A DNA stretch of 38,083 bases from a virus. The stretch is from IMG/VR virus record IMGVR_UViG_3300049197_000024, positions 1 through 38,083 of that record; one strand, 5' to 3'. Positions 1 through 5,504 of this stretch are shown piece by piece. The stretch's first letter is position 1; each line of letters begins with the position of its first letter. A program made the position numbers and the translations under genes. The notes under the pieces were generated by a model that made no database searches, was not told the DNA's origin, and was given only the letters and a program-made list of their open reading frames with translations.

Positions 1-3000
1 GGCCCCAATCGCCCCGCCAGCCGCCATGCTGGAGGCCGCTGTTGCACCGCCTGCGGCGAGGGCTGCAGACGATGCCGCAGCACCGCCGATGAGGCTGTCA
101 ATCATCGGATTGATCGCACCCGCCAGCAGGCCGGAGAGATCGCCCAGCAGGTTGTCTTGCAAGCCGCTGTAGATGCTTTCTTCGAAGGCCCGAGAGGCAT
201 TGCGGGATGCCTCGGCAGCACTCCCGGCGTTCGTAACGGCTTCCTCCAAGATGGATTGCAAACCATCAGCGGTAACGCGGAATGCGTCTTGCATGCTCCC
301 GGCGCCTTCGGTGATGGAGGCAAAGGCATCGCTCATGCCCAGCAGGACCGCGACGGCTTGAGTTCCCGCATCGCCCAGGGCTAACTGTGACTCCACCAGC
401 GCGCGGAACTCGTCCCGCGTCTTGGGCATTTCAAGACCAACTTCTGCCAGCGCCTCGGACACCATGCGCGTCGTGTTGGCTGCGCGCTCGGCTTCGGAGT
501 AGTAGTTCTGGTAGTAGCTGGCGAGGCTGGAATTCAGCTTGTCAAACCCACCAGCTGCCTCGGCAATCGCGGCGGCTGTGTCGAATGCCATATCCGCAAA
601 CTGCGGCAGGCCCATCCCATCCAGCGCGTTCTTGAACTGCTCCACGCCAACGATCTGAGCGTTGATGGCTGTCAGTAGGGAGTCTGCCGCTTCAGCGGTA
701 AGGGACTCCGCATCCACTCCTTCAATCTGCTTCTTGATCGCCTCGGGAATGTCCGTGACGGATTGCAGCGCTTGAATCGTGGACTGCTTCAGGTCGAGCG
801 TGAAGTTCTCCAGCGCGGTTTTGAAGTCAGGAGAGTTGGTGCTGAATGCTTCGTACAGCGTCCCGGCGTAGTTGTCGCCTTTGCCCGATTCGCCGAACTG
901 CATCCCGTTGGACAGCGTACCGCCAGCGAACACACCGCCACGGCCCTTGCCAGACGTTTCCAGACCAGCTGAAAAGCCAGACAGACGCGCAGTGGAGCCC
1001 AAGGCTTCAAGAAACGAGTTGATGCCCTTGGCCGTGCCGCTCACTGCGTCACGAATTGCCGACTCTTGCGCAACCGGGTCGCCCTCCAGGCGGTACGCTT
1101 GGCCGTTCACCAGTGCATTGCGCTCGCCGTTGGAGAAGTCTCGGTCGAACTGCTGGCCCTGGTAGGTGTACGTTTCGCCGCGCCGGTTGTTCATGACCTG
1201 GCCGTCGAACGCAACGCCGAACTGCCCACCTGTGCGGGTTTCGCCCTTGAACGAACTGAGCAGGCTCGTGAGCGCACCGATGCCCAGCGCAATCGGCCCG
1301 AGCGCGCCAGCGAACGTGCCGAGTCCTCCCATGATGTTTCCGGACTGCAAGGCGATCGAGCCAGCCGACAGTGCGCCGCCGAGCGTTGTGCCGGTCGCGG
1401 AAAGCCCGAGCGAGCCCATCAGCCCGCCGAACCCACCAGACAGCCCACCGCCGAATGCACCAAGGCCACCCAACAGGCGCGCGCCGCTTGCAATGTTGCC
1501 AACCGTGCCTAGCGCAGACGTGCCAGCGTTGGCAGTTCCTGCCAGCCCAAGGGCTCCGGTGATGGCTCCAGCAACGGGATTCACGACCGCGCTGATGATC
1601 GGACGCAAGACAAGCGTCTTGAACATGTTCACCAGCGTGTCGCGGAAGTTCTTGGCGAAGTCCTTGCCGGACTCGAAGCCGCGCATCAAGCTATCGGTCA
1701 GAGATCGCTCGATGTTCTCTGCGGTGCGCTGCCAATCGGCCTGCGTCTGCTTCGCAGCATCTTCGGATGCCTTGCGCGCCTCGGTGGAGCGGATCACGCC
1801 AAGCAACTCTTCGCGAGCCTCGATTTCCTTCTGGACTGCGAGATAGGCGTCTTCGTTGCCCTGCAGCCCGTCACGCTTTTCTTTGAGGCGGGCGATGGTC
1901 ACCAGCTCGATGGCCTCTGCCAAGGAGTAGTAGCCCTGCGAAGCGATAGCGGCGGCTTCTTCCTCCAACCGCATCTTGTCGATCTGCTGCTGAACAGCGA
2001 TAGCTCCGCGCCCCAGCTCTTCGATGTACTTTGCGTGCGCGCGGGCGCCCTCTTCTGCGGCCTTGGCTTGGGCCTTTGTGGCATCTGCTTGTTGCTTGGC
2101 AAGCGCCACGGCAAATGGCTGCTTCTGAATCAGGTCCTCGACGTACTCAATGTATTGGCGCTCAGTAATGAGCCCTTTTTCGCGCTGCTTTTGAGCGTTA
2201 GCCAGGTCCGCGTAGTAGGTGGATGAAACGCCAGAAATTTGTGCGAAAAGGCGTTCTTGCTCTTTCAGTTCAGAATTGACGGACGCAGGGCCTGTGCGCC
2301 CCTTCTTCGCCATGTCAGCAAGCTTTTCATTGATGCCAGCGATGCGGTCACGCAACGCCTGAGCCTCTATGCCGGAACCTCTGTTTTGAGACTCCAGTTC
2401 TTGCAGCGCGTCTTTGGCCTGCTTTGCTACACCTTTCAGCTTCTCGACTGCAGCAGCTTGTGATTCATAGGATCGCGTCGCATCCAGTGCTGCCTTCACC
2501 TGCCGCTCCGTATCGCTCTCAGTCGGAGCCCATGACCCCGTAGCGCCACCGGTGTTTGTGGTGGACGGAGTTCCAGGCGCAGGAGCCATTGCACCGCCGA
2601 TGAACGTGGCTGCGCCAATGGCCGGGCCAACGCCAGGCAGGTACTTCAGCCACGTGGGCGGAGACATCTGCGACAGCTTCTGCGTGAGCTCCGCTGTTTG
2701 CTCGATGAGCTTTGCCAGCCAGGTGTTAGCTGTGCGGAACGCTTCGGAGTTGCCCACGGAAGTTGTGAGCGAGTCCCATGCATTGCTCAGCTTGTCGGTG
2801 GCAGCACCAAGCGGCGTCATTGCGTCGTTGGCAAGTCCGCTCGTCGCAGTCTTGAGCGCATCCATCAACACCGCCTGGGCGCCAGCTTTGTCGCCAATAG
2901 CGGCCATCTTCTCGATGCTGAGGATCTGCGCTGCCGTGAGCGTGCCGAGCGCGTCTTCCAGCGTCTTCGCGCCCTTGACAGGGTCTGCAAACGCTTCGGC

Positions 3001-3915
3001 GAGCTTCTTTGCAGCGGTGGGAATGTCTGTGCCGGTCGCTGCGGCGAAGTCCGCGACGGAGCTACCAAGGCGCCGGAACAGGTCGCCACTGAGGCCAGAC
3101 ACCTTGGCAAACTCGGACACGATGCTGGTTGCTGCAGCCTTGCTGACACCGGGGATCTTGTTGAGCTCTGCAACCAGGAACTTGATGTCACCCACGGCTG
3201 CCACCGAGGCGCGCCCCGTACCAGTCAACTGGACAGACAACTCACGCAGCGCTGCGTCCTTGCCGTTGATGGTCGCCATGGCGATGCCGAGCCCAGCCAC
3301 TGCAGCTGCAGCCAGGGTGAACGGGTTGACCAGACCCATGACGTAACCACCGAGCGCGCGAGCCGCGTTTCCAGCACCGCCGAACATGGTTGACAGTTGC
3401 GAGCCTTGCTGCAGCAGCACGGTCATTGGAGCCTGCCCACCCTGGAGCGACACCACAATGTCCTGGAACTGCGCAGGCACGCCACGCAATGCGGCGGCGG
3501 TTTGCTTGGCAGACATGCCCATCGAGTCAAGCGAGCCGGTAGCGGCGCGCTGGGCCTGCTGGGCTTGCGCTTCGACTTCGCGCAGCCGCTGCAGCATGGG
3601 CTCAAACTTCTTGGGGTCCAGCCCCTTGTCGGCGATGTTGAACTCGATCTTCTGAGATGCAGTTTTCCCGAGTAGTTCGAGTTCGGTCGTGGACTTCTTT
3701 ATCAGCGCCGAAATCTTGCTTTCAGCCCGGGTGAACTTATCAGCACTGGCGCCAGCACCGTCGCCGATCTTGTCAACGGCTTGCCCAGCCTTGCCAGCAG
3801 ACGTGGCTACCTCATTGGCCATCTGCTGGGCTTTGTCGCCAACACGGTCGAAGGCACTTTCTGCCTTCTCCGAGTTGACGACTACCTCGCCCTGTATTTG
3901 CAGGTCAGATGCCAT
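1..3915 (-). CDS. Tail length tape measure protein, 3' end outside window
   Basis: The minus strand is open for 1305 codons from ATG at 3915 to the window edge, so the C-terminus is missing. It sets tail length, fills the tail tube and is ejected at infection. The N-terminal third resembles prophage tape measure proteins of the lambda GpH type (TMP_2 family): a segment rich in Gln and Gly near residues 150-180 (QDIVVSLQGGQAPMTVLLQQ) precedes a hydrophobic stretch near 185-210. The middle is helical and charged (about residues 480-740). A long Gly/Ala-rich hydrophobic region follows near 780-890, typical of membrane-inserting tape measure segments. It follows the G/GT chaperone frames, the usual order. 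Two hairpins lie between them. The length fits a siphovirus tail. Confidence 0.93.
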   Translation of the reverse strand, partial: MASDLQIQGEVVVNSEKAESAFDRVGDKAQQMANEVATSAGKAGQAVDKIGDGAGASADKFTRAESKISALIKKSTTELELLGKTASQKIEFNIADKGLDPKKFEPMLQRLREVEAQAQQAQRAATGSLDSMGMSAKQTAAALRGVPAQFQDIVVSLQGGQAPMTVLLQQGSQLSTMFGGAGNAARALGGYVMGLVNPFTLAAAAVAGLGIAMATINGKDAALRELSVQLTGTGRASVAAVGDIKFLVAELNKIPGVSKAAATSIVSEFAKVSGLSGDLFRRLGSSVADFAAATGTDIPTAAKKLAEAFADPVKGAKTLEDALGTLTAAQILSIEKMAAIGDKAGAQAVLMDALKTATSGLANDAMTPLGAATDKLSNAWDSLTTSVGNSEAFRTANTWLAKLIEQTAELTQKLSQMSPPTWLKYLPGVGPAIGAATFIGGAMAPAPGTPSTTNTGGATGSWAPTESDTERQVKAALDATRSYESQAAAVEKLKGVAKQAKDALQELESQNRGSGIEAQALRDRIAGINEKLADMAKKGRTGPASVNSELKEQERLFAQISGVSSTYYADLANAQKQREKGLITERQYIEYVEDLIQKQPFAVALAKQQADATKAQAKAAEEGARAHAKYIEELGRGAIAVQQQIDKMRLEEEAAAIASQGYYSLAEAIELVTIARLKEKRDGLQGNEDAYLAVQKEIEAREELLGVIRSTEARKASEDAAKQTQADWQRTAENIERSLTDSLMRGFESGKDFAKNFRDTLVNMFKTLVLRPIISAVVNPVAGAITGALGLAGTANAGTSALGTVGNIASGARLLGGLGAFGGGLSGGFGGLMGSLGLSATGTTLGGALSAGSIALQSGNIMGGLGTFAGALGPIALGIGALTSLLSSFKGETRTGGQFGVAFDGQVMNNRRGETYTYQGQQFDRDFSNGERNALVNGQAYRLEGDPVAQESAIRDAVSGTAKGINSFLEALGSTARLSGFSAGLETSGKGRGGVFAGGTLSNGMQFGESGKGDNYAGTLYEAFSTNSPDFKTALENFTLDLKQSTIQALQSVTDIPEAIKKQIEGVDAESLTAEAADSLLTAINAQIVGVEQFKNALDGMGLPQFADMAFDTAAAIAEAAGGFDKLNSSLASYYQNYYSEAERAANTTRMVSEALAEVGLEMPKTRDEFRALVESQLALGDAGTQAVAVLLGMSDAFASITEGAGSMQDAFRVTADGLQSILEEAVTNAGSAAEASRNASRAFEESIYSGLQDNLLGDLSGLLAGAINPMIDSLIGGAAASSAALAAGGATAASSMAAGGAIGA

Positions 3916-3956: not shown

Positions 3957-3982
3957 AAAAAGGAAAGCCACCCGAAGGTGGC
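3957..3982 (-). terminator. Hairpin with UUCG loop at end of G/T frame
   Basis: On the minus strand GCCACC-TTCG-GGTGGC is followed by TTTCCTTTTT. The stem begins at the TAG stop codon of the frameshifted T frame. With the next hairpin it forms a tandem pair between the chaperone and tape measure genes. Confidence 0.65.
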
Positions 3983-4311
3983 TATGTGTCTGAGCGGTTG
4001 TCGCTCATCTGTTTGAGTGCCGCGCGCTCTAGAACTTGTAGGTCTTCAAAGAGTGCCTGCCACTCGTCGTCATCAGCAGCCAACCGGTCGATGAGCCGGT
4101 ATGCGCTTTCGTACCGGATGCCGGTCGCGCCGCCGAATCCCACGTTCCACTGCGTTTGCAGGTCGCAGAACAGCGAAAACGCCTTCCAGTTCTCGGGCCA
4201 TACCTCGACGGCCTGTTCGTTGTTGCGGCTGGCGAGAGCCGCGAGAAACGGGTTGCCGGAGACGTCTTCTTCCTTGGCGTAGAAGGCTGCTCCGGCCTCT
4301 CTCAGTTTCCC
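3982..4311 (-). CDS. T frame of tail assembly chaperone (DUF1799-like), made by -1 frameshift
   Basis: This frame is open from 4320 to TAG at 3984-3982 and encodes a domain resembling DUF1799 phage proteins (WPENWKAF..LQTQWNVGFGG..YESAYRLIDRL..WQALFEDLQVLERAAL). It has no ATG, GTG or TTG before the middle of the domain. The preceding chaperone frame ends GGA-AAC-TGA, and the overlapping heptamer GGGAAAC allows a -1 slip that leads directly into this frame at 4305. The fusion would be 127 + 107 = 234 residues. In lambda the G/GT pair is made in the same way, and GT recruits the tape measure protein during tail assembly. The position just before the tape measure gene fits this. Independent initiation, for example from CTG at 4305-4303, cannot be excluded. 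Confidence 0.8.
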   Translation of the reverse strand, partial: GKLREAGAAFYAKEEDVSGNPFLAALASRNNEQAVEVWPENWKAFSLFCDLQTQWNVGFGGATGIRYESAYRLIDRLAADDDEWQALFEDLQVLERAALKQMSDNRSDT

Positions 4312-4685
4312 AAGCGCCCCTCAATGCAAGCAGCTCGGTACGTTTCCATGATCGCGGTGACAGCTGCTGGGTATTCATCCGCCAGCTGCTGCAAGTTCGC
4401 CTTGCTGAGGTCTTCGTCGAGGCTCCAGCCGTCCAGCACATCCATGATGTAGTCGGCGTTTGCACCTGCTGTGCGCTCCATGAGCTCGGCCATGGAGAAC
4501 TTTTCGCCGTCCGCCTTTTCCTTGGCGCCAGCGGCTTCCATCATGCGGTCGATGAATTCGCCAAACTCAGAGCGAGTGCGGTACTTGTAGATGCACTCGA
4601 TGGCGCCCTCGCCGCCCTCCAGCAAGGGGAACTTGATGACGCGCTTGAACGATTTTGGGCGGCTGCCCAGCTTGATCTTTGCCAT
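4302..4685 (-). CDS. Tail assembly chaperone (lambda gpG analogue)
   Basis: This is a 127-residue cytoplasmic, charged protein starting MAKIKLGSRPKSF. It resembles phage tail assembly chaperones encoded between tail tube and tape measure genes. Upstream in-frame codons exist (an ATG further upstream would add 13 residues), but ATG at 4685 has a GAAAG Shine-Dalgarno and matches family N-termini. The 3' end overlaps the T frame, and translation can either stop at TGA 4304-4302 (G form) or slip at 4311-4305 (GT form). It is expected to hold the tape measure protein while the tube polymerises. An inverted repeat lies just upstream of the start. Confidence 0.85.
   Translation of the reverse strand: MAKIKLGSRPKSFKRVIKFPLLEGGEGAIECIYKYRTRSEFGEFIDRMMEAAGAKEKADGEKFSMAELMERTAGANADYIMDVLDGWSLDEDLSKANLQQLADEYPAAVTAIMETYRAACIEGRLGN
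4305..4311 (-). promoter_or_regulatory. Putative -1 ribosomal frameshift site GGGAAAC
   Basis: In the chaperone frame the minus strand reads TTG-GGA-AAC-TGA. The heptamer G-GGA-AAC fits the X-XXY-YYZ slippery pattern and sits directly before the stop codon. A -1 slip re-pairs both tRNAs on GGG-AAA and continues into the T frame. Lambda uses GGGAAAG at the same place. Confidence 0.75.
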
Positions 4686-4789: not shown

Positions 4790-5431
4790 TCAGTAGGAGA
4801 TGGAGCGGCCGATGACCGTCATTGCGGCGTCAACGCTGTTGACCTGGTTGCTGTTGAGCTTGGGCATTTCGGACACCGACAGGTAGCCGTAGCCGTAGGT
4901 CACAGCGCCGCCAGAGATGACCTGTTTGAAGGCCACCTTGGACAGGTTGCGCGAGATGCCAACCATGGTGATGAAGTTGGCATTGGCAGCGTCATGCGCG
5001 AGCGACATGGTGATGCTCGTGGCGTTGAAGCCGGTGGGGATCTTCAGGCTGTTGCGCTTTGCCAGCAGTTGCACGTCCGTGAAGCGGGCGTCACCACCGG
5101 AGCCGCTGATCGTCAGCACCTGGGGAATGCTGGTCCAGCCGCTGATCTTCTGAGCCGTGCCAGCGCCAGTGCCAGCAGGGAAGAAGCCGGTATTGCTGGT
5201 GTCCAGGCCCAGGATCTTGAAGCTGTTGGCGTCAACCACTTCAATCTTGTAGACGCTGTCGGTCGCGTCTTCCCAGCCAGAGGTGATCAACACTTCATCG
5301 CCGGTCACGTAGCCGTGTGCAGTGCTGGTTGCCACTGCAGGGTTGGCGTTGGTGACAGCGGAGATGGTCTTTGCAGACGCGAAGGTTTGAGAGAACTGCT
5401 GCGAGCTGCCCTCAGGGAAGTACAAAGCCAT
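4790..5431 (-). CDS. Phage tail tube protein
   Basis: This is a 213-residue protein beginning MALYFPEGSSQQFSQTF. It is rich in Gly, Ser, Thr and Val with predicted beta content, and resembles major tail tube proteins of lambda gpV-like siphoviruses; an internal segment (STAHGYVTGDEVLITSGW) looks like an inserted beta module. The frame extends further upstream, but that part lies in a terminator, and ATG at 5431 has a GAAAGAAAGG Shine-Dalgarno at suitable spacing. It follows the tail terminator gene and precedes the chaperone, the standard order. Tandem hairpins directly upstream suggest separate control of this abundantly needed protein. Confidence 0.85.
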   Translation of the reverse strand: MALYFPEGSSQQFSQTFASAKTISAVTNANPAVATSTAHGYVTGDEVLITSGWEDATDSVYKIEVVDANSFKILGLDTSNTGFFPAGTGAGTAQKISGWTSIPQVLTISGSGGDARFTDVQLLAKRNSLKIPTGFNATSITMSLAHDAANANFITMVGISRNLSKVAFKQVISGGAVTYGYGYLSVSEMPKLNSNQVNSVDAAMTVIGRSISY

Positions 5432-5458
5432 GGTGAGGCCCTTTCTTTCAGATGGACG

Positions 5459-5480
5459 AAAAAAAACCGCATCGCTGCGG
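5459..5480 (-). terminator. Terminator-like hairpin before tail tube gene
   Basis: On the minus strand CCGCA-GCGA-TGCGG is followed by eight T residues, a textbook intrinsic terminator. It ends about 28 nt before the tail tube ATG, leaving no room for a normal promoter. Confidence 0.75.
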
Positions 5481-5504
5481 CTGGTTGCGCCCTCTTCGGG
5501 CATG

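Follow-up and report, generated by a model that had tools for sequence, protein, structure and literature searches.

How does a virus translate a reading frame that has no start codon of its own? The question is raised by the IMG/VR virus record IMGVR_UViG_3300049197_000024, of which we analysed positions 1 to 38,083 (hereafter the window, 38,083 nucleotides (nt) in length). A siphophage tail cassette lies on the minus strand of the window; in it, the tail tube gene is followed by a tail assembly chaperone gene (G), a DUF1799 frame (T) that lies in the -1 phase relative to G, and the tape measure gene. Frameshifting of the phage lambda type is textbook knowledge for tail chaperones, and such frameshifts were reportedly surveyed by Xu et al. 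in 2004 (Mol Cell). We propose, with a probability of roughly 95%, that a programmed -1 ribosomal frameshift of the lambda G/GT type joins G to the DUF1799 frame.

The junction between G and T

The elements of the junction are as follows.

4302..4685, minus strand: gene G, tail assembly chaperone of 127 amino acids, PF08748 (Phage_TAC_4), by Pfam profile match
4305..4311, minus strand: slippery heptamer G_GGA_AAC in the G frame, in the X_XXY_YYZ phase for tandem -1 slippage
4302..4304, minus strand: stop codon TGA of G, abutting the heptamer, read in the sequence
3982..4311, minus strand: T frame (-1), DUF1799 (PF08809), 109 codons counted from the heptamer, with stop codon TAG at 3984-3982
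4321..4323, minus strand: TGA in phase with the T frame, lying 9 nt before the heptamer, read in the sequence

Both frames are recognized far above the curated Pfam cut-offs, G by Phage_TAC_4 (100.6 bits against a cut-off of 21.1; E value 9e-29) and T by DUF1799 (78.9 bits against a cut-off of 26; E value 3e-22). The 3' end of G reads ...CGC TTG GGA AAC TGA, and the heptamer stands in the correct phase directly before the stop, just as a preliminary description of this DNA had stated. That description had also held that the DUF1799-like frame has no usable start. The TGA at 4323..4321 closes the T frame, so that T is unreachable from further upstream in its own frame, and from this stop to the TQW core of the domain there is no ATG, GTG or TTG. 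Since the first such codon comes only after the core, T lacks an ordinary start. Fusion of the two frames would give a predicted protein of 127 + 107 = 234 residues, the length first proposed.

We propose that most ribosomes would read G to its end and terminate at the UGA, yielding the chaperone of 127 amino acids. In a small fraction of cases, the tRNA-Gly on GGA and the tRNA-Asn on AAC would slip together by -1 onto GGG-AAA, and the slipped ribosomes would resume at the CUG of the T frame and complete a G-T fusion of 234 amino acids with DUF1799 as its second domain. The heptamer of the window does not by itself exceed chance expectation: GGGAAAC occurs three times where 3.7 occurrences are expected. 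GGGAAACTRA occurs once where 0.06 are expected. What lies beyond chance is the comparative evidence, namely a slippery heptamer at 264 of 265 homologous junctions versus 1 of 512 control sites.

The slippery site across the DUF1799 family

This comparison draws on 289 loci with a DUF1799 frame, taken from annotated phages, IMG/VR and prokaryotic genomes. The loci were found via protein patterns or the Pfam profile, and the codons of the heptamer itself were absent from the search patterns. Genome samples were drawn around genomes holding homologous prophages, and the survey covers the loci accessible by sequence similarity, mostly in Pseudomonadota. At 265 of the 289 loci, G was recognized by its profile next to the DUF1799 frame. 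T is in the -1 frame relative to G in every one of these, and an in-phase XXXAAAC heptamer lies in the G/T overlap of all but one, as GGGAAAC (138 loci), AAAAAAC (125) or TTTAAAC (1). The heptamer abuts the G stop at 220 of these 264 loci and is separated from it by 3 nt at 41, by 6 nt at two and by 9 nt at one. When the T proteins are collapsed at 50% identity, 41 of 42 clusters have the heptamer, and in 67 of 77 clusters at 70% identity it directly touches the stop. The control consisted of other open reading frame (ORF) ends at the same loci (at least 80 amino acids), where XXXAAAC was found at one of 512. At the 24 further loci, where G is missing or too divergent for the profile, XXXAAAC is present in the right phase in 14, several of them farther out. 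Four divergent loci (L238, L254, L265 and L279) carry AAAAAAC 27-105 nt before the G stop, which indicates that the stop does not abut the heptamer everywhere in the deepest branches. The preliminary description had raised the possibility that DUF1799 genes regularly lack starts and follow a slippery heptamer; the counts agree with it, and no conserved start codon was found among the homologous DUF1799 frames.

Selection has left its mark on the site itself. The Gly codon is GGA in all 33 GGGAAAC clusters, although GGA makes up only 8% of the Gly codons in these genes. The T tree requires six or more switches of the first triplet between GGG and AAA, each of them a change of the whole triplet, and no non-slippery intermediate between the two occurs among the sampled sequences. 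For example, the surroundings of the site are almost the same in loci L017 and L019, one of which has AAA and the other GGG at exactly these bases. At the heptamer, the frame that codon periodicity follows changes from G to T: conservation over the three codon positions is 0.52/0.52/0.26 bits in the G frame upstream and 0.65/0.56/0.22 bits in the T frame downstream. Conservation of the T frame sets in at the slip site itself, ahead of any start that could be used, with Lys2 and Leu3 invariant and Ala6 and Tyr11 conserved; the Leu3 codon is made up of the C that closes the heptamer and the two bases after it, and where the stop abuts, these two are also its first two bases. From codon 4 onward, purifying selection acts on T, with a ratio of nonsynonymous to synonymous polymorphism (pN/pS) over the first codons after the site, counted from codon 4, of 0.14-0.16 family-wide and 0.4-0.44 in the clade of the window.

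Possible stimulatory signals and alternative routes to T

Two features near the heptamer could assist slippage.

4255..4296, minus strand: predicted stem-loop GCCGGAG / CUCCGGC, 8 nt after the heptamer, possible stimulator
4317..4322, minus strand: GAGGGG, a Shine-Dalgarno-like sequence lying 5 nt upstream of the heptamer, possible stimulator

We compared the stability of the 50-nt stretch beginning 5 nt downstream of the heptamer with that of synonymous-codon shuffles, in which the T protein and its codons are preserved. In the window this stretch is markedly more stable than the shuffles (z -2.5, p 0.007), and its mean z over 76 clusters is -1.02 (standard error 0.19), compared with -0.32 and -0.20 in the next two stretches. 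Six close relatives retain strong stems in slightly different registers. Shine-Dalgarno-like motifs lie 5-17 nt upstream in 32 of 76 clusters, compared with 14 and 10 in control windows. As a stimulator, the motif is suggestive only.

Several observations weigh against a lambda-type frameshift at this site. The A-site codon is AAC here and AAG in lambda. Many family members, among them some Pseudomonas clades, have no excess downstream structure, and a formal count of hairpin pairs in the six close relatives gave covariation not above that of shuffles, for which reason the hairpin too is only suggestive. Finally, Enterobacter phage ST22 (L012, 1495-1504) has a G/T pair in the -1 relation that reads CGC CAA AAG CCC TGA and contains no XXXYYYZ heptamer; because only one similar phage record exists for this site, a sequence error and a new slip motif are indistinguishable.

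Could T instead be made as a separate protein, through re-initiation or translational coupling, with translation starting either at the CUG in the CUGA overlap or further downstream? The sequence AAACTGA in the window does set a CTG over the G stop with GAGGGG upstream of it, and in many records T appears as an ORF of its own that starts further downstream. However, the codon at the CTG position is CTA in 25 of 76 clusters and CTC in nine of 76, so a start at this position is not conserved. The positions of the other in-frame starts vary, with one at or before the conserved Tyr11 in only 14 of 76 clusters, and independent translation would leave both the invariant XXXAAAC and the rare GGA without a reason. 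We consider this route highly unlikely. Slippage of RNA polymerase on a run of A could also yield the fusion, and AAAAAAC, which gives A runs of 6-7, is found in half of the family. At two loci around 1485-1500, in a metagenomic virus (L162) and a Photorhabdus prophage (L061), a run of eight A (GAAAAAAAACTR) even puts G and T in one open frame; the runs are either homopolymer errors or genuine fusions, in which case G alone would have to arise by another mechanism. In contrast, GGGAAAC, in which the longest run is three, is the form in the window and in roughly half of the clusters, the GGGAAAC and AAAAAAC forms interchange on the tree, and phase-specific conservation of X_XXY_YYZ is a ribosomal signature. 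Transcriptional slippage is accordingly an extremely improbable source of the fusion. We reject CUG re-initiation, a downstream start and transcriptional slippage because no start is conserved, because GGGAAAC lacks long runs and because conservation is phase-specific. There is scarcely any chance that the heptamer is a by-product, formed without slippage, of conserved protein ends (...Gly-Asn in G, Gly-Lys-Leu... in T), for although these ends are conserved at the amino acid level too, none of the synonymous options (GGC, AAT or another third base in the preceding codon) occurs, GGG and AAA replace each other as whole triplets, and Lys2-Leu3 of T exist only if translation crosses the site.

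With ribosomal frameshifting as the preferred reading, what might the adjacent stop contribute? One tentative and rather doubtful idea is that the DUF1799-type chaperones form a frameshift class of their own, in which the heptamer is nearly always XXXAAAC and is normally fused to the G stop. The stop would then belong to the signal itself: ribosomes would slip, or their slippage would be tuned, with the stop in the A site, competition with the release factor would set the G:GT ratio, and a hairpin 8 nt downstream would help in some clades. Alternatively, stop adjacency might reflect only that G needs no further residues.

Likely roles, annotation and known systems

The neighbours of G and T in the cassette are as follows.

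4790..5503, minus strand: tail tube (major tail) protein, upstream neighbour, PF08813, PHROG 584
1..3915, minus strand: tape measure protein, downstream neighbour, PF06791 (TMP_2), open for 1305 codons and running off the window start

PHROG 17368 covers both G and T. The tape measure gene does come next after T, as the preliminary description had it; "just before" is too close for a gap of 66 nt between the end of the T frame and the tape measure ATG (3915). Two tandem hairpins resembling intrinsic terminators lie between the T stop and this ATG (3983-3966 and 3952-3935, minus strand), and a third lies after the tail tube gene (5482-5465). Terminators are annotated elsewhere after the T frame in phage T1 and between the tail tube and tape measure genes in HK97. 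Such hairpins may tune the levels of chaperone relative to tape measure protein.

In lambda, GT and G are made at about 1:30, G binding the tape measure and T the tail tube subunit (PMC5009743). By analogy, G in the window would coat the tape measure protein, recruitment of tail tube subunits would fall to the few fusion molecules, and the ratio of G to GT would matter. For the AlphaFold model of G (predicted local distance difference test score, pLDDT, 84), the best VIA-align match is 2ob9, the tail assembly chaperone of HK97 (Z 4.9 over 92 residues; the next match has 2.8), and Foldseek alone returned nothing significant for it. A fold search with the T model (pLDDT 88) matched viral proteins annotated as tape measure or tail assembly chaperones, fused chaperones among them; the fused chaperone of Acinetobacter phage Loki is a weak match (E value 0.11, probability 0.99). 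In the PDB, the structure search with T gave only middling unrelated matches (Z under 5), and a sequence search with the G and T profiles gave no phage match.

Is DUF1799 a T domain, as first suggested? Position, expression mode and the TLS fusion, which combines PF08748 and PF08809, point that way; a detectable sequence relation to lambda T does not accompany them. The T of the window has no match to the PF06223 (Phage_tail_T) profile, and hhalign of 59 DUF1799 sequences against the single lambda T sequence gave a probability of 0.7%, which leaves room for remote homology. The 80 lambda T loci that were retrieved are 99-100% identical and therefore provide no diverse alignment. We propose that DUF1799 is a T domain by position and expression mode, not by demonstrated homology to lambda T.

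The mechanism and single examples are already known. A survey of bacterial genomes found 6-7% frameshifting in reporters for two genes of an HK97-like tail chaperone cluster (PMC3711429), a conserved frameshift in the tape measure chaperones was described for the T1-like phage Stevie (PMC4319613), and for gp12-gp13 of Loki the AAAAAAC adjacent to the stop was named (PMC5313236). The joined TLS record together with the Stevie and Loki descriptions means that neither the mechanism nor single examples are new. What appears to be new, as judged from sequence comparison, is a family-wide rule for DUF1799: it would be reached by slippage, with AAC nearly always as the A-site codon and a stop that usually abuts. 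A literature mention of DUF1799 enters it as a separate gene, and among 12 annotated phage records that we examined only TLS has a joined coding sequence, T elsewhere usually being a shortened "hypothetical protein". The T frame of phage Aval (L002, 1938-2249) is misannotated as "FAD-dependent oxidoreductase", that of ST22 (L012, 1483-1836) is noted as "putative DNA cytosine C5 methyltransferase", and PHROGs 569 and 680 bear the label "tail length tape measure protein", likewise a misannotation of T frames. DUF1799, a Pfam family of unassigned function found in hundreds of phages and prophages, thus would gain an expression mode and a likely role, and most annotated DUF1799 genes would begin at the wrong place. 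XXXAAAC with an adjacent stop is a rule simple enough for automated annotation, and the DUF1799 loci form a natural, well-sampled collection in which to study the reason for slippage on AAC in bacteria and the effect of an adjacent stop.

How, then, does the locus compare with known systems? HK97 (PF06222, Phage_TAC_1) and Pseudomonas phage D3 have their chaperones at the same gene position but in different sequence families. HK97 also has an annotated -1 frameshift, and its chaperone is the best structural match of G; in D3, unlike in the window, GGGAAAG stands 18 nt before the stop. Lambda shares with the window the order tail tube, G, T and tape measure, a -1 slip that occurs close to the G terminus and leads into a short second frame, and the first six heptamer bases, GGGAAA. 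The preliminary description placed GGGAAAG at the same point in lambda; the heptamer is indeed in lambda G, but it ends 15 nt before the stop and its last base (Z) is G, whereas in the window Z is C and the stop abuts. Lambda G and T also belong to other Pfam families (PF06894 and PF06223). Loki, by its description, has AAAAAAC in place of GGGAAAC. In TLS and T1 (Drexlerviridae; tape measure chaperones tfmA/tfmS), G is likewise followed by T and the heptamer touches the stop in both, with AAA and not GGG as the first triplet (AAAAAAC). T1 is annotated as two separate ORFs, unlike TLS, which pairs PF08748 with PF08809 as the window does and whose GenBank entry already joins the two in one coding sequence.
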